Shown here: piece after piece, positions 345-37,097 of the stretch
How the letters are laid out: every line of letters begins with the position of its first letter
Numbering within the stretch: position 1 is the first letter of the stretch
Assembly (NCBI RefSeq): GCF_021295345.1
Contig: NZ_JAIMJB010000025.1
Coordinates: 1-53,667, forward strand
Reading direction: 5' to 3'
DNA from: Motilimonas eburnea
GTDB taxonomy: Bacteria; Pseudomonadota; Gammaproteobacteria; Enterobacterales; CBDFNC01
DNA: 53,667 bases
Notes under the pieces: model-generated
The model's input: the letters and a program-made list of their open reading frames with translations, nothing else
Told to the model about the DNA's origin: nothing
Database searches by the model: none
Translations under genes and position numbers: made by a program

Positions 345-3300
345 ATGGATTTAAAGGGATATACTGACATTGAGTTGGTGCACTTGGCGCAGCAAAGCCG
401 AGTTTATCGCGCGGTTAGAGAGGTCGACCAAGTTCAGGTGATGCTAAAAACGCCTAACCAAGATTTCCCCGATCCCCGTCAGTTATCCGCATTAAAGCGT
501 GAACATAGCATCTTACAGACCCTATCTGGCGATGGTTTAGCTCAAGCATTTGATTACATAGAGCAAAAAAACTCAGCCGTTTTGGTTAGGCAGTGGTTAG
601 AGGGGATATCACTGCGCCAATATGAAAAAGAGAACTCGCCTTCCTTAACACAAGCCTTAAATATAGCCATTCAACTTACGGATATTTTGGGTTGCGTGCA
701 TCAGCAACATTATTGTCACCGCGATATTTCTGCTGGCAATGTGATTGTTGATCCGGCCACTGAGAAGGTGAGTCTCATTGATTTTTGTTCCGCGCTGGAG
801 CTGCCCAATCGCGCTCGGCAAGTGATAAAGCCTAAGTTTATTGAAGGCTCAAGGCCTTATATGTCGCCCGAACAAACGGGACGAATGAATCGAGGACTGG
901 ATTTTCGTACCGACTTTTATTCGTTAGGGGTGTTGTTTTACGAACTGTTTACCCAGCGTTTACCGTTTGCGGCATCGGATAATAACGAACTGATCCATTG
1001 TCATATTGCGGTTGAGCCTGCCTTTCCTGATACGGTCAACCCTGACATTCCCCATCCCTTAGCGCGATTGATCATCAAGCTAATGAGCAAGTCGCCCGAT
1101 GATCGTTATCAGAGTGCACAAGGCCTAGCTGCGGATTTACGTCATTGTCTAGCTCAGTGGCAACAACATCAACGAATTGATGATTTTGTTTTAGCACAAC
1201 ATGAAGTGCAGGACTGGTTTATTCTGCCGGATAAACTCTATGGTCGTGAGCAACAAACCGCGCAGCTACTTAACACCTTTGATCGGGTGAGTGAAGGCAA
1301 GGGCCATTTGGTGTTTATTTCTGGCCCCGCTGGTATAGGCAAGACATCATTGATCCGTGAATTATACCGGCCACTGGCGGGCAAGGGCGGTTATATCGTT
1401 AGTGGTAAGTATGACCAAGTAATGCGACATCAGCCCTATTCCGCTTTGTTGCAGGCACTAACCAGTTTGGTTAGGCAGCTATTAGCTGAGCCCGCGGCCT
1501 TGATTGAGTATTGGCGGGATAAAATTCAGCAAGGCGTTGGCGTCAATGGGCAAGTCATCATAGAGGTGATCCCTGAGCTGGCTTTGCTCTTAGGCCCTCA
1601 ACCAAAATTGGCAACCTTATCGGTTGAAGCGGCGTCAACGCGATTTAACACCACGTTTCACAACTTGATGCACAGCCTAGGGCATACGCGTTATCCCTTA
1701 GTGATCTTTATTGATGATTTACAGTGGATCGATCCCCCTAGCTTAGCCTTGCTTGAAGCCATGGCGCCAGCTTTGGCCGATTCATCTTTAATGATGATTG
1801 CGGCCTATCGTGACAATGAGGTCGACCAAACCCATCCATTGTCTTTATCCATGCCCAATTTAACGGCCAGTTGTCCCCATGTGTTGTCGATTGCGTTAGG
1901 CGAGTTAGATGAGCCTGCGTTTGTGGCGTTAGTCCAAGATTGTGTTGCGTTACCTCACGCTGAACTCGCGCCATTTGTGGCCTTGTTGCGCCAGCGTGCC
2001 CAAGGTAACCCACTGATTTTTAGAACTATGTTGGCCTCATTGCATCATCAAGGCCATTTGTACTATGACTATGAAACAAACACTTGGGGCTGCTTGCTTA
2101 AAGAGGTAGAAAAGCTACCTACCATGCACAATTCACTTGAGATGTTAAGGGCTTATATTCTTCAGTTACCCGAGGCGACATCGAGTTTATTGCGTTTGGC
2201 TAGCTGTATTGGTAACACCTTTGACTTGCACTTGTTAGTGAGTTTAAGTGGTTTACCTCGTTCGAAAGTCGCGACCTTGTTGCTGCCTTGCGTGAGTGTG
2301 GGGTTGATCTTGCCCCTTGATGATGACTTTGAATTACTGACCACACAAGCCGGAGAACAGCTGCCGGATGTCGCATTTAGGTTTAGTCATGATAGGGTGC
2401 AGCAGGCCGCTTATACTTGTTTATCCGAGCAGCAAACAATACAAGCCCATTGGCAAATTGGCTGGCAAATGCTGCAAGATAGCCACGAGGGTGAAACCTT
2501 ATTTGATGCTGTTGAACACTTAAACCAAGGTTGCGCCTTAGCCAATGACGTTGAACGTGACCGCTTGGTTGAGTTAAATATTCAAGCTGCGGCGAAAGCC
2601 AAGGCCTCGGCGGCATTTAGTGTGGCTTATAATTGCTTAAGCCAAGCCCATGCCTTGTTAATCCCATTAGCCGAGCCTGAGCATTCAGAGCGCACGATAG
2701 ATCTTGAAATTCAATTGGCACAGGCGTGTTATCTGGTGGGGGAGTTTGAGCAAGCACAAGACTTGTATCAAGCTCTGGACGCTAAGAACACGTCAGTGGC
2801 CGCTAGGCTTAAGCTATGTAATATCAGAGCGAAACAATACCATCACCAAGGTTTATACCAAGCGTCTGTAGCTCAAGAGCGCGCCGCATTGGCCTTGTTG
2901 GGAATCGATTTACCCGATGATGATGACGCTTTGCTCGCTATGTTTGCAGAGCAGCAACAGCAAATTAATGCGCTACTACAGCGTAAAGATGCCGAGCGGT
3001 TATACCAACAAGCTGAGGTGGATGAAGCCCATTTTGTGTTAACCCATGAGCTATTGTTCGACTTATTCGTTGATAGTTATTTACTGGGGCGCGCCCCGTT
3101 ATTATCCGTTGCAGCGGCCATCAGCGCTCGAATTTCGATGGAGCAGGGCAATTGTTGTGTCACCTCTGCTGGCTACATTAATTACGCCACCATTTTATGT
3201 TCCAGTGGTCACTATCGCGATGGCCATGCCATTGGCCGTTTGGCGGTAAGGTTAGCAGATAAATACCAAAACCCCGCCTTTCAAAACTATACCTATCATG

Positions 3301-5369
3301 TCTTTTCGTTAGGGATTAATCACTGGCTTGAACCCCTAAGATCGAGTTATCACTATTGGCATCAGGCGTCTAAATTGTCACTGGAATCTGGCTCGCCCTA
3401 TGCGGGTTGGGTGTTTTTGCAAAAGCCTCACTTATTGTTTTCGGCCGGTGCGCCCTTAGTCGAAGTGGCTGAGCAAGTGAAGGCAAGTGAGCATTATCTG
3501 CAAGCCAACAAGCTTGATGATGTTGCTCAGTTACTGACTATTATTGTTAGCCAACCATTAAAGCATTTACTCGGGCAAACCCAGCATTTTGCCACCTTAG
3601 ATGACGCCAACTTTAATACCACAGAGTTGCTTCACCGTTATCAAGATGCGCCCTTCTTTCTTGGCCATACTTATTATGCCCAGCTGAGAGTGGATTTATT
3701 GGCGCAGCAATACCAAAGTGCAACGCAGTTAATGCAACGCTTAGCCGTGATTGAGGCAACCGTACAGGCGCAGATTATTCAGGTGGATAGCTGCTGGTTC
3801 GTTGCTTTGCAATTAAGCGCACCTTGCCATCACTTAAGCGGTGAGGCCAAGGCTGAACACTTGGGTTTATTACAGCAATTGATTGATAAGTTTGCGGTTT
3901 GGGCTCAGTTATGTCCGCATAACTTCAAACATAAATACTTATTACTTCAAGCTGAGTGGCTTCGCTTAGATGGCCAAACCATGGCTGCGCTTGATCATTA
4001 TGAGTTGGCGCGTGAAGCCGCCCTCGCGGGGCAGTTTTTGTTTGACGCAGCCCTTTGTGACGAGTTCACGGGCTTATTCTGGCTGAGCTTAAATAAAGCG
4101 TATCAAGCACAGAGCTACTTAAAGCGGGCGATGGCCGGTTATGAACAATGGGGCGCTAAAGCCAAAGTTAATTGGATGAAGGCCAATTACGCAGGTTTAT
4201 CCCCTGAATTGCCTAGTGCTTCAGGCTTGTTTGGCACATTAGATTCAACCTTAGGCAGCCATGATTTTTCAACAGCACTTGATATAAACACAGTGTTAAA
4301 AGCCTCCCAAGCGATCTCGCAGCATATCAACATAGATAAACTGAGCGACCAATTGTTAAGTTTGGCGGTAGAGAATGCTGGCGCAACACGAGGACTATTG
4401 TTATTAAGGCAAGCTGATGACTATGTAATTGCCAATGAAAACTGTGCCAAACAAGGGGGCGTCCTCAAGGTTGAGCTAGCGCAGTCATATAGCCAATCCT
4501 TGAGCTTGTCTCAAGGCATAGTGCGCTTTGTAATTAATACCAAACAATTAGTGCTTTACTCGCCAAAACAGCACGATGAGCAATTTGATCGCTGCCCTTA
4601 TCTGAAAAAGCACAAAGAGGTGGCGATTATTTGTGTGCCGATAGTGCGTCAAAATCAGCTCACCGGGATCTTATATCTTGAAAACAGTCACCTTGCCGAG
4701 GCCTTTATGCCGGAGCGGGTGTATACCTTACAAATTTTGGCCACGCAAGCCGCCATTTCCTTGGAAAATGCGCAAATGTATCGCGATTTGCAGGGCTTAA
4801 ATAAAAATTTGGAAGCGCTGGTGGATGAGCGCACCCAAAAGCTACACCATGCTAACCAGTTGTTAGTTGAAAAGAACAATGAGCTGTATTTGCTTTCAAC
4901 CACAGATCAGCTAACGGGTATTTATAACCGCCGTTATATGGAAGAGCAGTTACAGGCAAGTTTAACCACATTAATGCTCCAACCTGCCTGTGTGTTGATG
5001 CTAGATGTCGACTATTTTAAGCAGGTTAATGACAACTACGGCCATGACGTGGGTGATGATGTTTTAGTCAATGTGGCCAATATCATAGGGCGAGTGATCC
5101 GCCGAGTGGATGTTGCCGGGCGTTGGGGCGGAGAGGAATTTGTGATCCTCACTATGTCGGATCTCGCTGGCGCTAAAGCCAATGCCGAGCGCCTTGCTAG
5201 AGAGGTGGCGACACATACTCATCCAACAGCAGGGATAGTCACAGTGAGTATCGGAGTTACGCCGTTATGCGCGACGGATACATTAGATTCTGCCTTAGTA
5301 CGCGTCGATAAGGCGTTGTATGAAGCCAAAAATCAGGGGCGTAATCAAGTGGTGGTTAGGACTAAGTAA
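345..5369 (+). CDS. Multidomain kinase-like/ATPase/GAF/GGDEF signalling protein
   Basis: A 1674-residue cytoplasmic signalling protein of the Ser/Thr-kinase plus AAA-type ATPase class. Residues 5-275 form a protein-kinase-like domain with Lys35, the HRD loop (125-127) and Asn132, but DFG is replaced by DFC (146-148). A P-loop ATPase follows: Walker A 327-335 (GPAGIGKTS) and a Walker B-like IDD near 456-458. Residues about 640-1300 are helical, TPR-like. A GAF domain spans about 1311-1475, then a short coiled coil, then a GGDEF domain ending at the C terminus. The GGDEF site is intact (GGEEF, 1595-1599) and the product-inhibition I-site RxxD is present at 1586-1589, so diguanylate cyclase activity is likely. 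Kinase activity is uncertain. No membrane segment or signal peptide is evident. The start is taken at ATG 345, although a strong ribosome binding site is not visible. Confidence 0.88.
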   Translation: MDLKGYTDIELVHLAQQSRVYRAVREVDQVQVMLKTPNQDFPDPRQLSALKREHSILQTLSGDGLAQAFDYIEQKNSAVLVRQWLEGISLRQYEKENSPSLTQALNIAIQLTDILGCVHQQHYCHRDISAGNVIVDPATEKVSLIDFCSALELPNRARQVIKPKFIEGSRPYMSPEQTGRMNRGLDFRTDFYSLGVLFYELFTQRLPFAASDNNELIHCHIAVEPAFPDTVNPDIPHPLARLIIKLMSKSPDDRYQSAQGLAADLRHCLAQWQQHQRIDDFVLAQHEVQDWFILPDKLYGREQQTAQLLNTFDRVSEGKGHLVFISGPAGIGKTSLIRELYRPLAGKGGYIVSGKYDQVMRHQPYSALLQALTSLVRQLLAEPAALIEYWRDKIQQGVGVNGQVIIEVIPELALLLGPQPKLATLSVEAASTRFNTTFHNLMHSLGHTRYPLVIFIDDLQWIDPPSLALLEAMAPALADSSLMMIAAYRDNEVDQTHPLSLSMPNLTASCPHVLSIALGELDEPAFVALVQDCVALPHAELAPFVALLRQRAQGNPLIFRTMLASLHHQGHLYYDYETNTWGCLLKEVEKLPTMHNSLEMLRAYILQLPEATSSLLRLASCIGNTFDLHLLVSLSGLPRSKVATLLLPCVSVGLILPLDDDFELLTTQAGEQLPDVAFRFSHDRVQQAAYTCLSEQQTIQAHWQIGWQMLQDSHEGETLFDAVEHLNQGCALANDVERDRLVELNIQAAAKAKASAAFSVAYNCLSQAHALLIPLAEPEHSERTIDLEIQLAQACYLVGEFEQAQDLYQALDAKNTSVAARLKLCNIRAKQYHHQGLYQASVAQERAALALLGIDLPDDDDALLAMFAEQQQQINALLQRKDAERLYQQAEVDEAHFVLTHELLFDLFVDSYLLGRAPLLSVAAAISARISMEQGNCCVTSAGYINYATILCSSGHYRDGHAIGRLAVRLADKYQNPAFQNYTYHVFSLGINHWLEPLRSSYHYWHQASKLSLESGSPYAGWVFLQKPHLLFSAGAPLVEVAEQVKASEHYLQANKLDDVAQLLTIIVSQPLKHLLGQTQHFATLDDANFNTTELLHRYQDAPFFLGHTYYAQLRVDLLAQQYQSATQLMQRLAVIEATVQAQIIQVDSCWFVALQLSAPCHHLSGEAKAEHLGLLQQLIDKFAVWAQLCPHNFKHKYLLLQAEWLRLDGQTMAALDHYELAREAALAGQFLFDAALCDEFTGLFWLSLNKAYQAQSYLKRAMAGYEQWGAKAKVNWMKANYAGLSPELPSASGLFGTLDSTLGSHDFSTALDINTVLKASQAISQHINIDKLSDQLLSLAVENAGATRGLLLLRQADDYVIANENCAKQGGVLKVELAQSYSQSLSLSQGIVRFVINTKQLVLYSPKQHDEQFDRCPYLKKHKEVAIICVPIVRQNQLTGILYLENSHLAEAFMPERVYTLQILATQAAISLENAQMYRDLQGLNKNLEALVDERTQKLHHANQLLVEKNNELYLLSTTDQLTGIYNRRYMEEQLQASLTTLMLQPACVLMLDVDYFKQVNDNYGHDVGDDVLVNVANIIGRVIRRVDVAGRWGGEEFVILTMSDLAGAKANAERLAREVATHTHPTAGIVTVSIGVTPLCATDTLDSALVRVDKALYEAKNQGRNQVVVRTK

Positions 5370-5385
5370 TGAGTAAGGAATATAA

Positions 5386-7581
5386 GTGCGAGTGAAACAG
5401 GATAAAAATAACAGCCGAGCTATCAAAAAAGCGTTATTAGTTGTGACTAGCCATACGGAGCTTGACGGCACAGGGCAAAAAACAGGTTTTTGGTTTGATG
5501 AATTAGCGACCCCTTTTTGGGGATTGTATGATGCCGGATACGAAGTTTGTATCGCTTCGATAAAAGGCGGCAAGGCCAGTGCCGATCCCCTCAGTGCTCA
5601 AGGTGAGTTTGCGACGCCTGCCGTGCAGCGCTTTTTAGCATCCGATTTTGCGATGTCTTGGCTCGATGATACCTTGCTGATTGATGAAGTGAATGTCCCT
5701 TCTTTTACTACTTTGTTTCTTTGCGGCGGCCATGGCACCTTGTGGGATTTTAAGCAAAGTCGTGGCTTAGCTCGAGTGGTGAGTGAATTTTACGCCGGAC
5801 AAAAGTTAATTGCCGGCGTTTGCCATGGACCAACGGGACTTTTATCAGCGAAAAAGCCAGATGGCAGTGCGCTGATTGCAGGCCTTAAGTTAACCGCATT
5901 TTCGGACGCTGAAGAAACCTTAACCCCGCCGCAATATATTCAAGCCTTACCCTATCATTTAGAAGATGCCTTGGTTGAGCAAGGGGCAAATTATCAATGC
6001 GGGCAACCCAATGCGCGTTTTGTTCGCTCTGAAAAAGGCCTGATCACAGGGCAAAACCCTGCGTCGGTCGAGCTGGTAACGAAAACCTTACTGGATGCGC
6101 TGAGTAAAAAACGGGTGTGGTTAGACACTAACCTAGCGATAGGGGCTGCGAATCCAGCTGGGCAAGTGTGCAAGGTAGACGATGCTTACGCGCTGCTTAG
6201 TCTATTTAATAGCAGCAACGTAAAAGTGCAGGGCATTAGCAGTGTTTTTGGTGAGACAGATACGCTGACGGCATCACAACTTGCCAAGATGTTAGCGAAC
6301 CGATTTGGTCCGGTGGCGTTACCAGTTGCGACAGGTGCTGCTCAAGCCCTCAATATTAGCGAGGTGAAGTCCAATGAGGCGGTGAAGCGGTTAGCGCAAG
6401 CCTTGCGTCAAGGGCCTATGACGCTGGTAGCCCTTGGGCCGTTAACCAACATTGCAACGCTTATCCTGCTTCATCCCGACTTAACCAGCCAGATAGAACA
6501 GCTTATTTGGGTGGCTGGGCGTGCCAGTGAGCATGGGGCGTTTATCGGTGGCCCTAAACAGCAAACGCCACTTGCCGATACGGGCTTTGAATTAGATGTG
6601 GATGCAGCGCGAGTGGTATTAGCCAGTGATATTCCCGTGGTGTTAACGCCATTTGAGTTAGGGGGCCAAGTGTGTGTAACCCAAGCTGATTTAAAGGCAT
6701 TAGAAGAAAGTCACGGTGTTGGTGAGTATTTAAGTGAGCATTCACAGCCTTGGCTAAATAAATGGACACAGGATTATGGCGCGCAAGGATTTACGCCGAT
6801 AGCGGCACTGGCTGCCGGGTTTGCGATAAACCCGAACCGATACCAATGGCAAAAATTAGCGGTGGAGTTTCGTATCGCCGCCGATGATACCAAAGGGGCC
6901 CGCTTTGGCACGCCGGAACAATACAAGCCCTATCTCGTTGTTTCGCCTGAATGCCAAAGCCCATACTCGGTGCTTTACTGTACCCATGTGGTCGACGACT
7001 TTAAGCAATCTCTGCTATCTGGGATCATTAACCCCAATGATCCGGCTAAGTACATTGCAGCCGTGTCGCACTTAAACATCATAGTGGACGATGTTGATGA
7101 AGCCACCGCGTTTTATCAGCGCACCCTTGGTTTTGAACAGGCCTATGATGAAGCCGGAGAAATCATGGATTATCCGCATTTAACCTTGGCTTCATTTGCG
7201 AAAGATGCGGGCTTTACCAATGGTAAAGTCGATGTGGATATCCGTTTTTTGCGTCACCCTACCGCAGGTCTTTACCTTGAATTAATGCGTTATTACACCC
7301 CACAAGGCGAGCAAGTAATCACTAGGAAAAACACCCATGATATGGGCGGCGTGCGTCATACCGCGCTTGAGGTGAACGATATTATGGAAGCCTTTAACTA
7401 CCTTAAAGATCAGCCTGGGGTCGAAATGGTACGTTTTCCTGATGATCAAGATAATGATGAGCAAGGGCCGCCCATGGTATTGGCGCCATTCCCAATGTCG
7501 TTCTTTTACTGGCGCGACCAATATGGTGTGCAGTGGGAAATGGAATGCGGCAGAAAACGCGGTTATTTAAGAGGCATCTAA
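5386..7581 (+). CDS. DJ-1/PfpI - nucleoside hydrolase - VOC fusion protein
   Basis: A 731-residue protein made of three enzyme-like domains. Residues 14-237 are DJ-1/PfpI (Hsp31-like), with the nucleophile Cys146 in GVCHGPTG followed by His147, and Glu39 as the probable acidic partner. Residues 243-555 resemble inosine/uridine nucleoside hydrolases: the Asp-rich nest is DTN (247-249) with VDD (264-266), and ALGPLTNIATL is typical of the family. The second Asp of the usual DTD is Asn. Residues about 562-722 are a vicinal-oxygen-chelate (glyoxalase/dioxygenase-like) domain retaining His (SHLN), Glu (YLELM), His (RHTALEV) and Glu (QWEMEC) as possible metal ligands. The start is GTG 5386, behind AAGGAA at 5375-5380. 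It lies 16 bp after the preceding gene, so co-transcription is possible. The combined function is unknown; glyoxal or nucleoside detoxification is only an inference. Confidence 0.85.
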   Translation: MRVKQDKNNSRAIKKALLVVTSHTELDGTGQKTGFWFDELATPFWGLYDAGYEVCIASIKGGKASADPLSAQGEFATPAVQRFLASDFAMSWLDDTLLIDEVNVPSFTTLFLCGGHGTLWDFKQSRGLARVVSEFYAGQKLIAGVCHGPTGLLSAKKPDGSALIAGLKLTAFSDAEETLTPPQYIQALPYHLEDALVEQGANYQCGQPNARFVRSEKGLITGQNPASVELVTKTLLDALSKKRVWLDTNLAIGAANPAGQVCKVDDAYALLSLFNSSNVKVQGISSVFGETDTLTASQLAKMLANRFGPVALPVATGAAQALNISEVKSNEAVKRLAQALRQGPMTLVALGPLTNIATLILLHPDLTSQIEQLIWVAGRASEHGAFIGGPKQQTPLADTGFELDVDAARVVLASDIPVVLTPFELGGQVCVTQADLKALEESHGVGEYLSEHSQPWLNKWTQDYGAQGFTPIAALAAGFAINPNRYQWQKLAVEFRIAADDTKGARFGTPEQYKPYLVVSPECQSPYSVLYCTHVVDDFKQSLLSGIINPNDPAKYIAAVSHLNIIVDDVDEATAFYQRTLGFEQAYDEAGEIMDYPHLTLASFAKDAGFTNGKVDVDIRFLRHPTAGLYLELMRYYTPQGEQVITRKNTHDMGGVRHTALEVNDIMEAFNYLKDQPGVEMVRFPDDQDNDEQGPPMVLAPFPMSFFYWRDQYGVQWEMECGRKRGYLRGI

Positions 7582-7739
7582 TTGAATTAGCTTCACTTTA
7601 GGCAATGGTGTACTTGGCTTGAGACTGCGTACGCTATTGCCAACTGTTTTCTATATTGTCTCATCAAGCGAGAGAAGTCTCGCCGCTTTCAGTCTTCTTA
7701 ACCGCATTTCTCGATGAATATTTTAAACAAGGTTTTAGT

Positions 7740-8141
7740 ATGAAACTTAATGGATTAACGCGCATCAGTATAACCCTAGTCCTGTTACTTAGCTCGGTAC
7801 GGGCTTTTGCTAGCGATGACTACAGCGTGCAGCTTTACTTTGGTCTTTCTGTTCCCGATGGTAGCGGCGTGTCTATGCAGCAGTGGGATACCTTTATGAC
7901 CGAGCATATCGTGACACGCTTTGCTGGCTTTAATGTGGTGGACTCGGTGGGCTATTGGCAGGGCAAGCCCGAGCGCTCCAAAATAGTGACTATCTTGCTT
8001 AAAGCCTCGCAAGTGGCTGAAGCTGAAGCGGTAGCTCGCCAGTATGCTAAACAGTTTCATCAAGATTCAGTGATGATGGTGAAAAGCTCTGTAGTGAAGG
8101 TTGAGTTTGTGAGCGCAAAAGAGCCTGAATTAATCCAATAG
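7740..8141 (+). CDS. Exported DUF3574-like protein
   Basis: 133 residues from ATG 7740, preceded by AAGG about 8 bases upstream. The frame is open further upstream (from 7656), but this start gives a clean signal peptide: basic MKLNGLTR, a hydrophobic stretch, then a likely cleavage after AFA. The mature part (LYFGLSVPDGSGVS, QQWDTF, then a region ending in KIVTILL) matches my memory of DUF3574 proteins, small secreted proteins without a known activity. I see no lipobox and no catalytic motif. It stands alone between the fusion gene and the convergent tRNA gene. Confidence 0.7.
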   Translation: MKLNGLTRISITLVLLLSSVRAFASDDYSVQLYFGLSVPDGSGVSMQQWDTFMTEHIVTRFAGFNVVDSVGYWQGKPERSKIVTILLKASQVAEAEAVARQYAKQFHQDSVMMVKSSVVKVEFVSAKEPELIQ

Positions 8142-35231: not shown

Positions 35232-37097
35232 TTGATTTTTTTGATAAGGATGTTAGTTACCACTTGGGTTGTTGCCATGATGGCTGCTGGCGTCAAGGCT
35301 AACTCGCTGGATCCTTGGATTGCGTTGGAGAATAGCCATCTCCCGCCCCATGAGTTGATTGTGGAAAGTGAATCGCTGTTGGCACAACACCAACAACAAG
35401 GTTACCTTGCGGGCGAGGTCAGAGGTAATGTGATGCTGGCGCTCGCTCACCTTTCTTTAGAGCAAGATCAACAAGCCCAATCTTATTTAGATCGCGCTAA
35501 GCGGCTCAATGAGTCTGCTAATTCGGTTGCCGACCGGTTAAAAATTAATAACCTGCAAGCGTCTGTTTATGCGATGAATGGCGACATTAAGCAGGCGGTT
35601 GAGGCTGTGATTGCGAACTTAGCCCAAGCCAGAGCATTAGATGACCCCATTTTACTGGGGGATACCTTAATACAATATGCTTACACTATGCAGTTGGAAT
35701 CGCAATATGCTGAAGCCATCGAGCGCTTATTTGAAGCGCAGCAGCTGTTTGAGAAAACCAATGACCATTCACGTTTGATGACCATTCAGAGTAACCTTGC
35801 GATCATTTACTCTAAGTTAAAAAACTACCACAAAGCCATTGAATATTATCGCCATGCTGTGGAATTTGCGATTGAACTGGGTGATGATTTTAGTTTATCC
35901 ATTTTCTATTACAATTTAGGTACAGCGCATATTGGATTAGAGAACTGGCCCAGTGCCATTGATTATTTTTCTCAGGCCAAGGATCTCAGTGTTGCGTTAG
36001 ATGATAAGGCCGGAGTGGCACTGGCTACCTCCCAGTTAGGCAGTGTGATGATCAAAAACCAGCAATTCACCGCCGCGCTTCCCTTGTTATTAGATGCCAA
36101 TGATATGCTTACGGATGCCGGCTCGGAGTACATGCGCATGCGCATCAAGCTCGATATTGCGATGATCTATGCTAAACAAGGCCAGGTAGACTTTGCCAAA
36201 GCTTATATCAGTGAAGTGGAGTGGATGATGGCTCAAGGCGGAGACGATAGTCGTTTTCCGCGTCTATCACTTGGTGAAGTCTATTCCGAGCTGGGCTTAT
36301 ATCAGGATTCCTCACGTATTTTTTATGCCTACATCGATCAGTTGAATAAAGATTTTGAAATTAAAAAGCAGTTATCCCTGCAACGTTTAGAAGTGATTTA
36401 TGATGTGCGTTTTGAGAAATCGCGCAATGAGCTGTTGGAAAAAGAAAATGAACTGAATGAATCTGAGTTGGCTCGGCAAAATCAGTTTCGCATGATTTTA
36501 GCCCTAAGCTTGATTTTGGTGTTGGTCTTTTTGGCGCTGACATTTCGACAAATTCGCATCCAGCGTGCACATAAACAAAAATTTAAAGCATTGGCCTATA
36601 AAGATGAGTTGACGCAAGCCGCTAACCGTAGAGGCATTTTGGCGTTTGCCCAAGAAAGCCTTGAACAACTCGTTGATACTCATGATCAGTTGGTATTGGC
36701 GATCATCGACTTAGATCATTTTAAGCAAGTGAATGATCGTTTTGGTCATGATGTGGGTGATCAAGTCTTGATCTACTTTGCTAAGATTGTTGGTGGTTCA
36801 CTCCGTAGCCATGAAAAAGTAGGGCGTTACGGAGGGGAAGAATGGTTACTGGTCTTACCTCAAGCAACGCCAGATGAAATTCAACCTTTGTTCAATAAAT
36901 TGCTCAAAGCCTATCAGCAGCATAAGCCCGCGAACTTGCCAGCAGAGCTGGTCCTTAACTTTAGTATGGGCGCCGTAGTGGCCCAATGTGGTCAAAATGA
37001 GTCAATTAATGCCTTGTTAAAACAAGCTGATGAGGCCTTGTATCAAGCCAAACAAAATGGTCGCGCTCGGTGTGAAGTTGCGCAGCAAGGAGCTTAA
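35232..37097 (+). CDS. Periplasmic TPR - transmembrane - GGDEF protein
   Basis: 621 residues from TTG 35232, preceded by AGGTGG (35222-35227). A signal-anchor peptide is followed by about ten TPR-like helical repeats (residues 30-385), for example YHKAIEYYRHAVEFAIELGD, a coiled coil, a membrane helix at about 420-440, and a C-terminal GGDEF domain (about 455-615). The catalytic motif reads GGEEW (534-538) with Trp replacing the usual Phe, and the I-site position is RSHE, so product inhibition is probably absent. DLDHFKQVNDRFGHD is intact, so cyclase activity is plausible. Topology places the TPRs in the periplasm, where they could contact the upstream binding protein. Confidence 0.85.
   Translation: MIFLIRMLVTTWVVAMMAAGVKANSLDPWIALENSHLPPHELIVESESLLAQHQQQGYLAGEVRGNVMLALAHLSLEQDQQAQSYLDRAKRLNESANSVADRLKINNLQASVYAMNGDIKQAVEAVIANLAQARALDDPILLGDTLIQYAYTMQLESQYAEAIERLFEAQQLFEKTNDHSRLMTIQSNLAIIYSKLKNYHKAIEYYRHAVEFAIELGDDFSLSIFYYNLGTAHIGLENWPSAIDYFSQAKDLSVALDDKAGVALATSQLGSVMIKNQQFTAALPLLLDANDMLTDAGSEYMRMRIKLDIAMIYAKQGQVDFAKAYISEVEWMMAQGGDDSRFPRLSLGEVYSELGLYQDSSRIFYAYIDQLNKDFEIKKQLSLQRLEVIYDVRFEKSRNELLEKENELNESELARQNQFRMILALSLILVLVFLALTFRQIRIQRAHKQKFKALAYKDELTQAANRRGILAFAQESLEQLVDTHDQLVLAIIDLDHFKQVNDRFGHDVGDQVLIYFAKIVGGSLRSHEKVGRYGGEEWLLVLPQATPDEIQPLFNKLLKAYQQHKPANLPAELVLNFSMGAVVAQCGQNESINALLKQADEALYQAKQNGRARCEVAQQGA

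Follow-up and report, generated by a model that had tools for sequence, protein, structure and literature searches.

A recurrent fusion of DJ-1/PfpI, nucleoside-hydrolase-fold and VOC domains, found beside diguanylate cyclase genes

A 731-amino-acid protein of Motilimonas eburnea joins three enzyme folds in one chain, and the same kind of fusion recurs in distant bacteria. The gene lies in a stretch of 53,667 nucleotides (contig NZ_JAIMJB010000025.1 of assembly GCF_021295345.1), which we will call the window. The protein contains, in this order, a DJ-1/PfpI domain (DJ1), a nucleoside-hydrolase-fold domain (NH), and a domain of the glyoxalase/dioxygenase superfamily (VOC). The DJ1-NH-VOC protein is a real and recurrent fusion that is undescribed in the literature we searched. 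We propose that it is a genuine multi-domain protein, with a VOC metalloenzyme, a cysteine-dependent DJ-1 domain, and an NH fold, and that its gene belongs to a short cassette with a diguanylate cyclase at its head; taken as a whole, this explanation has an even chance of being correct. That the three domains share a function is highly likely. The original prediction, which was made from the DNA letters alone, knew of no report of this fusion. We found no description of it or of its domain pairs either, in a literature search that lay outside most subscription journals and domain-architecture databases.

The gene is a single open reading frame (ORF) without interruption, in a genome of 4,591,594 bases from what is probably a marine bacterium. 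All three of the domains that had been predicted score above Pfam's gathering cut-offs: DJ-1_PfpI (best stretch at residues 97–234, 35.2 bits, cut-off 26.6), IU_nuc_hydro (residues 264–506, 108 bits, cut-off 34.2), and Glyoxalase (residues 560–691, 39.1 bits, cut-off 20.6). The residues that had been singled out are also present, namely Glu39 and Cys146 in the DJ-1 part, Asn249 and V264-D265-D266 in the NH part, and His562, Glu632, His658, and Glu718 in the VOC part. A His/Glu/His/Glu metal set is of the glyoxalase I type. The features of the gene are as follows (all on the plus strand; the NH replacements and retained aspartates are placed by alignment).

5386..7581, plus strand: the DJ1-NH-VOC fusion gene, 731 amino acids, GTG start, with AAGGA just 5' of the start
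5386..6105, plus strand: DJ-1/PfpI domain, residues 1–240 (Pfam), on the Hsp31/glyoxalase III side of the superfamily
5500..5502, plus strand: Glu39, kept in all five three-domain proteins that show the DJ-1 part
5821..5826, plus strand: Cys146-His147, the DJ-1 nucleophile and its partner, kept in the same five of five
6106..7029, plus strand: nucleoside-hydrolase-fold domain, residues 241–548, of a clade with a long loop within the aspartate motif
6130..6132, plus strand: Asn249, replacing the NH metal ligand Asp10
6178..6183, plus strand: Asp265-Asp266 (Asp14-Asp15 of NH), retained
6583..6585, plus strand: Gly400, replacing the ribose-binding Asn168 of NH
6802..6804, plus strand: Ala473, replacing the NH metal ligand Asp242
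7030..7578, plus strand: VOC domain, residues 549–731, the most conserved part and common to every architecture found
7069..7071, plus strand: His562, at the first metal ligand position of VOC, identical in all 12 VOC domains aligned
7279..7281, plus strand: Glu632, at the second metal ligand position, identical in all 12
7357..7359, plus strand: His658, at the third metal ligand position, identical in all 12
7537..7539, plus strand: Glu718, at the fourth metal ligand position, identical in all 12

The DJ-1 part scores far below the equivalog level for HchA (54 versus 365 bits), and we do not class it as an HchA orthologue. Its nearest solved chains are 4p5p, 1u9c, and YDR533c (Hsp31), with 4lru, a "Glyoxalase III", lower in the ranking. 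The VOC part falls below the equivalog scores for glyoxalase I (20.0 versus 120 bits), YaeR (24.3 versus 140), and methylmalonyl-CoA epimerase (23.3 versus 114.95). Because it reaches no equivalog cut-off, and because its best solved relatives match with E = 5e-7 only, the VOC part apparently forms a subfamily of its own.

Proteins with the same domain order and 724–733 amino acids are encoded in four other genomes from two phyla: Motilimonas sp. E26 (locus L035), Vibrio rhodolitus (L036), Psychromonas aquimarina (L040), and a Desulfobacterium metagenome-assembled genome, or MAG (L037). These full-length homologues are 76, 66, 62, and 61% identical to the window's protein. A sixth DJ1-NH-VOC gene, from a Desulfobacterales MAG (L041), is truncated by the start of its contig, which leaves its DJ-1 part out of view; with L041 included, identity to the window's protein ranges from 58 to 76% across the five relatives. 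An artefact of assembly or sequencing, in which separate genes would have been joined by error, was considered, as was chance. With five complete genes of the same order (counting the window's) and a frame that is open throughout, we reject both, and the probability of an artefact is negligible.

The same three kinds of domain are also joined in another order. Five genes encode NH-DJ1-VOC proteins, in Psychromonas (L056), in the genus of P. aquimarina (L078), in Vibrio penaeicida (L059), in a Bacteroidales MAG (L058), and in an Aminicenantes MAG (L060). Their NH domains have the ordinary DTDMGWDD motif in the four whose start is visible (the L078 locus lacks the start of its NH), and they lie outside the clade of the window's NH. 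We built a tree of 27 NH domains, with four of the five re-ordered genes (L078 was cut short by its locus) and six of the 19 two-domain rows described below. In this tree, the clade with the long loop (16 rows, 100/100 support) excludes both the re-ordered and the generic NHs. The DJ-1 domains are of two kinds as well: in a tree of 24 rows, those of the window's type and those of the re-ordered type are separated by long, fully supported branches, and the nearest solved chain to the DJ-1 part of L059 is the isonitrile hydratase InhA. Only the VOC part is closely shared, with 49–51% identity to the window's VOC in L056, L058, and L060. (The VOC tree has 15 rows, the 12 aligned VOC domains plus three, and was built without L059, L078, L041, and most two-domain rows.) Because only the VOC part is closely shared between the two orders, the domain set was probably assembled at least twice. 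On the simplest reading of these sequences, a single VOC subfamily has acquired DJ-1 and NH partners on two or more occasions, and such repeated assembly would be good evidence for a shared function.

Separate genes for these domains also occur as neighbours in related genomes, which the original prediction had said would support a shared pathway. In L006, a 198-amino-acid VOC gene is followed by a canonical NH gene, 8 nucleotides on if the NH gene starts at the ATG at 2046. This NH sits on a long branch of its own in the NH tree. The gene 3' of the L006 pair (cluster c16) also lies 3' of a two-domain NH-VOC fusion in three congeneric species (L003, L004, and L068); the upstream neighbours differ. 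In L039, genes for NH-VOC, for a kinase-GGDEF protein, and for a DJ-1 protein stand in a row, and the DJ-1 protein is 30% identical to the fused DJ-1 domain. Two orders with different NH and DJ-1 subfamilies, together with separate neighbours in L006 and L039, amount to a link of the Rosetta-stone type. We also considered that three detoxification-type domains with no pathway in common might have fused by accident, and that gene transfer might then have spread the fusion. The patchy distribution across distant phyla would fit with this, but re-assembly from other NH and DJ-1 subfamilies and the neighbouring separate genes would not, and we think that it is very unlikely.

Carriers were found by scanning contigs with two peptide patterns, and divergent copies will have been missed. 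A two-domain NH-VOC form, of 485–495 amino acids where the start is clear, is present in Alginatibacterium, Aliagarivorans, several Vibrio, Grimontia, Enterovibrio, Motilimonas pumila (L026), and Desulfobacterota. In Desulfosarcina cetonica (L038:905-2373), the NH-VOC frame is split within the VOC part into two overlapping ORFs. Psychromonas ossibalaenae has a 72-amino-acid remnant (L063:5902-6120) in which the start of the DJ-1 part is joined to the end of the VOC part; it is flanked by a kinase-GGDEF gene of intact length and by ORFs of the DUF3574 cluster, which are the same two neighbour clusters as for the fusion. To gauge how common the VOC subfamily is, we used evenly drawn samples of genomes. 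In the window's class, 3 of 274 genomes had a match at E ≤ 1e-25, from the window's own protein and two distant stand-alone VOCs. At E ≤ 1e-30, only the starting genome matched in the phyla of the Desulfobacterium MAG (G665; 1 of 297), the Bacteroidales MAG (G666; 1 of 247), and the Aminicenantes MAG (G667; 1 of 99). Known carriers such as L038, L039, and L041 are outside these samples, so the census indicates rarity, not absence. We rejected a plasmid or phage origin for the fusion: 80% of the query was covered by none of 72,556 plasmid records and by none of 50,697 phage records. Of 825 plasmid records that matched, the best 20 all matched the DJ-1 stretch, some reaching residue 299, and of 12 matching phage records, the best 10 matched the DJ-1 or NH stretches. 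A scan of viral contigs with two VOC peptide patterns gave no match.

The original prediction held that each domain keeps most of its catalytic residues. This is true of the DJ-1 and VOC parts but not of the window's NH. By alignment with ordinary nucleoside hydrolases, Asn249 corresponds to Asp10, Gly400 to Asn168, and Ala473 to Asp242 (in the numbering of the Crithidia enzyme). Asn249 had been noticed and holds for the window's copy, though not across the family; the losses at Gly400 and Ala473 had been overlooked. In a review on nucleoside hydrolases, calcium and ribose binding are assigned to a DXDXXXDD motif, to later aspartates, and to an ExN motif (PMC10526354). By that definition, the window's N-terminal motif, which is DTN, a 15-residue spacer, and DD, is not of the DXDXXXDD type. 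Most relatives in the clade have DxD and a long spacer.

These changes are not shared by the family. The position of Asn249 is Asp in L035, L036, L037, and L040, and Asn in L041 as well. Asp is usual across the clade, so we rejected Asn249 as a family-wide change. Among the 42 aligned rows of the clade (L023 lacks the N-terminal part of NH and was excluded for D10 and D15), the other 41 have Asn at the position of Gly400. In 35 two-domain and stand-alone rows, all three metal positions can be seen, and each of these rows has Asp at the position of Ala473. All 35 of these fully visible relatives keep the metal positions intact, versus three of the six three-domain proteins (Fisher p = 0.0019, with no correction for kinship). 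The other two altered proteins are those of P. aquimarina (L040), with the loop deleted, D15 → N, and D242 → G, and of L041, with D10 → N and D242 → A. In the NH tree, the window's domain is sister to an intact one, and so is that of L041; L040 lies beside the pair of L041 and the intact L037.

The window's NH has also changed quickly. We counted unique changes in the window's protein versus L035. With L036 as the outgroup, there were 47 versus 15 in NH (p = 4.8e-5), 17 versus 13 in DJ-1, and 10 versus 8 in VOC. With L037, the counts were 46 versus 13, 14 versus 11, and 9 versus 1, and with L040, they were 33 versus 11, 9 versus 14, and 7 versus 8. The end branches in the 27-row tree have lengths of 0.47 for the window's NH versus 0.01 for that of L035. 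Nevertheless, all 308 NH codons pair with those of L035 without a gap or a stop, at a synonymous difference of 0.82 (saturated). Because the frame and the length have been kept despite saturated synonymous sites, the NH fold is probably still needed. The window's genome has no other match to PF01156, so we found no second hydrolase of this family that could stand in.

Judging from these sequences, the window's NH is likely inactive, and only the DJ-1 and VOC parts of this copy are probably still enzymes. The original prediction took Asn249 as a sign of changed chemistry. It is better read as lineage-specific decay, because the sister protein from the same genus keeps the Asp. A living NH with altered chemistry or a different metal site could account for the retention of length, reading frame, D247, D265, D266, T354, and N355. 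There is also a precedent, in that HopQ1, which has an altered motif, showed no detectable NH activity and yet its putative catalytic residues still mattered (PMC3608555). But three separate active-site positions are altered in the window's copy, and the positions lost in other three-domain proteins differ in part, a pattern that resembles relaxed constraint. We therefore consider altered chemistry to be improbable.

The fusion gene lies between two genes that recur beside its relatives, one of which encodes a diguanylate cyclase domain. This link to cyclic di-GMP (c-di-GMP) is absent from the original prediction and new here.

345..5369, plus strand: upstream gene, 1674 amino acids, Ser/Thr protein kinase, AAA_16 ATPase, GAF, and GGDEF domains (Pfam), with a GGEEF motif; it ends 16 nucleotides before the fusion gene
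7656..8141, plus strand: downstream DUF3574 gene (Pfam) with a signal-peptide-like stretch; its true start is probably the ATG at 7740

The order kinase-AAA-GAF-GGDEF, fusion, DUF3574 makes up the three-domain cassette. A DUF3574 relative (cluster c12) lies 3' of the fusion in all six three-domain loci, and also 3' of the L063 remnant. In the two Desulfobacterota copies, L037 and L041, a PNP_UDP_1 gene is inserted in the cassette. The window's DUF3574 protein also reaches the Pfam cut-off for S-AdoMet_lyase (28.8 versus 28 bits), as does one of five relatives.

We scanned the 25 loci of the DJ1-NH-VOC and NH-VOC groups for GGDEF genes (the L063 remnant is outside the 25, and L041, whose upstream gene lies beyond the contig, could not be assessed). 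A GGDEF gene is adjacent to the fusion in 23 of the 24 assessable loci, and it overlaps the fusion in several. No GGDEF motif was found in L038; in L039, the GGDEF gene is downstream. In 17 of the 19 two-domain loci, a shorter GGDEF protein (485–545 amino acids) is encoded 5' of the fusion, so two different types of cyclase are linked to these genes. The shorter protein of L026 has GGDEF and a HAMP match below the cut-off. In L034, an ORF of 499 amino acids overlaps the NH-VOC frame; it has GGEEF and shares 41% identity with the L026 cyclase. For comparison, the window's genome has 49 GGDEF domains, or about one per cent of genes if there are some 4,100 (our estimate). We also noticed a second GGDEF domain in the window, at 36594–37067, within a 625-amino-acid open frame. 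The link between fusion and cyclase genes is an association only, and it leaves control of the cassette by c-di-GMP as an evenly balanced question.

A more specific version is that the fusion would form or remove a ligand derived from a nucleoside, which the neighbouring kinase-GAF-GGDEF protein senses; the fusion would thereby set the c-di-GMP output. In many two-domain loci, the sensing would be done by a membrane GGDEF cyclase together with a small protein: in 11 loci (L026:3932-4501 and 10 others), the gene directly 5' of the GGDEF gene encodes a small protein that has one CxxCH and begins with a signal-peptide-like stretch. (The L026 protein has no Pfam or NCBIfam match.) This version would explain the conservation of the CxxCH protein, the adjacency in 23 of 24 loci with overlaps in several, and the use of two cyclase types. 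It would also explain why the cyclase persists where the fusion is reduced to a remnant (L063), although the lone cyclase of L063 equally shows that it can do without the enzyme. Furthermore, neither L038 nor the four re-ordered fusions scanned have a GGDEF motif beside them, and neighbours may share only a promoter. We consider signal turnover rather unlikely. We rejected a role in anti-phage defence: neither the fusion nor the DUF3574 protein matched any PADLOC model. For the upstream gene, 34 PADLOC models match, and the 25 of these that were listed all fall on the kinase part.

Other genes near the re-ordered fusions are of different kinds. In L056, an ADP-ribosylglycohydrolase gene (L056:3428-4249) lies upstream, near histone-deacetylase-like and acetyltransferase genes, and an HD_5 gene (L056:8893-11781, with a dCache match below the cut-off) lies 3' of the fusion. 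In L078, the gene in the matching place (L078:1-1003) has the same N-terminus as this sensor-like HD_5 gene.

Several neighbours bear on a nucleoside-like substrate. The PNP_UDP_1 genes of L037 and L041 score best on methylthioadenosine/S-adenosylhomocysteine (MTA/SAH) nucleosidase, below the cut-off. In Bacteroidota, stand-alone relatives of the loop-clade NH are found in 17 loci (L062:1561-12629 and 16 others), amid gene clusters that are shared by 8–17 of these loci. As annotated on L062 and L050, the clusters include SusC/SusD, an ABC importer, a methylthioribose (MTR)-kinase-like gene, DUF2064, and sometimes a radical SAM gene. The MTR-kinase-like gene (cluster c6, whose family was read on L062 only) is beside the NH gene in 13 of the 17 loci. 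These loci possibly encode the uptake and breakdown of a nucleoside-like compound. That the fusion itself acts on a nucleoside-derived substrate is a view we hold no more strongly than its opposite.

The original prediction guessed at a pathway for nucleosides modified by glyoxal. Such a pathway would salvage or repair nucleosides that carry a glyoxal or methylglyoxal modification, with the carbonyl adduct left to DJ-1 and VOC and the glycosidic bond to NH. The window's DJ-1 is nearest to the Hsp31/glyoxalase III side, and the VOC part keeps its full His/Glu/His/Glu set, which would fit with this. The premise that DJ-1 proteins act on glycated nucleotides has fared unevenly: yeast Hsp31 paralogues are reported to repair glycated deoxynucleoside triphosphates (dNTPs) and DNA (PMC10431920), but the effect of human DJ-1 is ascribed to glyoxalase and not deglycase action (PMC10634309). 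Furthermore, the step that needs a nucleoside belongs to NH, which lacks metal residues in three of the six fusions, and a re-ordered fusion uses an isonitrile-hydratase-like DJ-1. No neighbour that we annotated points specifically to glycated nucleosides, and there is no nucleotide-repair gene among the annotated neighbours. The pathway is possible but unsupported, and we consider it quite unlikely.

Instead, we propose the following for a recurrent fusion in a cyclase-headed cassette. In the intact relatives, NH would free or bind the ribosyl part of a nucleoside-like compound. DJ-1 and VOC would then work one after the other on that same compound or on its reactive carbonyl product, in the fashion of a glyoxalase or a hydratase, and the compound might be channelled between domains on one chain. 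In the window's copy, NH would no longer hydrolyse but would keep its fold as a binding or scaffold part, while DJ-1 and VOC would carry the activity. The product, the substrate, or the enzyme would be tied to c-di-GMP control. More broadly, and more tentatively (we put this at somewhat less than even), the fusions may represent a nucleoside-linked carbonyl-processing module around one VOC subfamily, which recruited DJ-1 and NH at least twice independently, in two orders, and which operates under c-di-GMP signalling or feeds it, with NH turning into a non-catalytic, substrate-holding part in some lineages.

Several observations weigh against this proposal. An approximately unbiased (AU) test against a single clade of all fused NHs gave p = 0.037 only. 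That test was set up after the groups had been seen. Its constraint also removes the stand-alone NHs of Bacteroidota from the loop clade, and this alone makes the fit worse. As for decay, with L037 as the outgroup the window's VOC is also faster (p = 0.011 for the 9 versus 1 changes above), and L036, whose NH is intact, exceeds L035 in both DJ-1 (27 versus 9) and NH (37 versus 21, p = 0.036). The decayed NH of L040 shows only a modest excess (34 versus 21, 46 versus 22, and 40 versus 26, depending on the outgroup), and that of L041 only a weak one (27 versus 15 and 32 versus 16). The hydrolase activity of the whole loop clade is only putative, even for intact relatives, because their long loop departs from DXDXXXDD as well. 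The 23 loci with GGDEF genes are related and so are not 23 independent events. Two of the four re-ordered loci without a GGDEF motif are short contigs, and L056 has only the HD_5 gene beside its fusion. Finally, a PNP gene is beside only two of the six three-domain genes.

The re-assembly and the cyclase link are more interesting than the glyoxal-nucleoside pathway that was originally proposed. Repeated joining of the same three kinds of enzyme, from other subfamilies and in another order, is strong genomic evidence for an undescribed pathway. The true substrates of DJ-1 proteins are still argued over, and the VOC partner, the operon, and the intact relatives are concrete proteins in which to seek a natural one. 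The neighbouring diguanylate cyclase suggests where to look for a phenotype, and the decay of one domain beside two conserved ones hints at which parts matter most.

The fusion can be compared with several known systems. HopQ1/XopQ are also NH-fold proteins whose N-terminal aspartate motif is altered, and HopQ1 had no detectable NH activity (PMC3608555), but these are injected plant effectors with other flanking parts, and the likeness is drawn from their descriptions. To the ribonucleoside hydrolases (IU_nuc_hydro; RihA/B/C), the window's NH is linked by its Pfam match of 108 bits and by a PLTN stretch; unlike them, its clade has the long loop in the aspartate motif, and the window's copy also lacks D10, D242, and N168. 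The VOC part has weak profile matches to members of its superfamily (methylmalonyl-CoA epimerase, 4-hydroxyphenylpyruvate dioxygenase or 4-HPPD, YaeR-like proteins, and glyoxalase I) and has the His/Glu/His/Glu set, but it stays below every equivalog cut-off. Isonitrile hydratase InhA, which among solved chains comes closest to the DJ-1 part of L059, is not of the subfamily of the window's DJ-1. The solved chains of the Hsp31/glyoxalase III class (YDR533c and 4lru, with 4p5p and 1u9c) are single-domain proteins of 224–247 amino acids, unlike the fusion, which is also short of the HchA equivalog cut-off; but the window's whole DJ-1 part aligns with them, including Glu39, Cys146, and His147.

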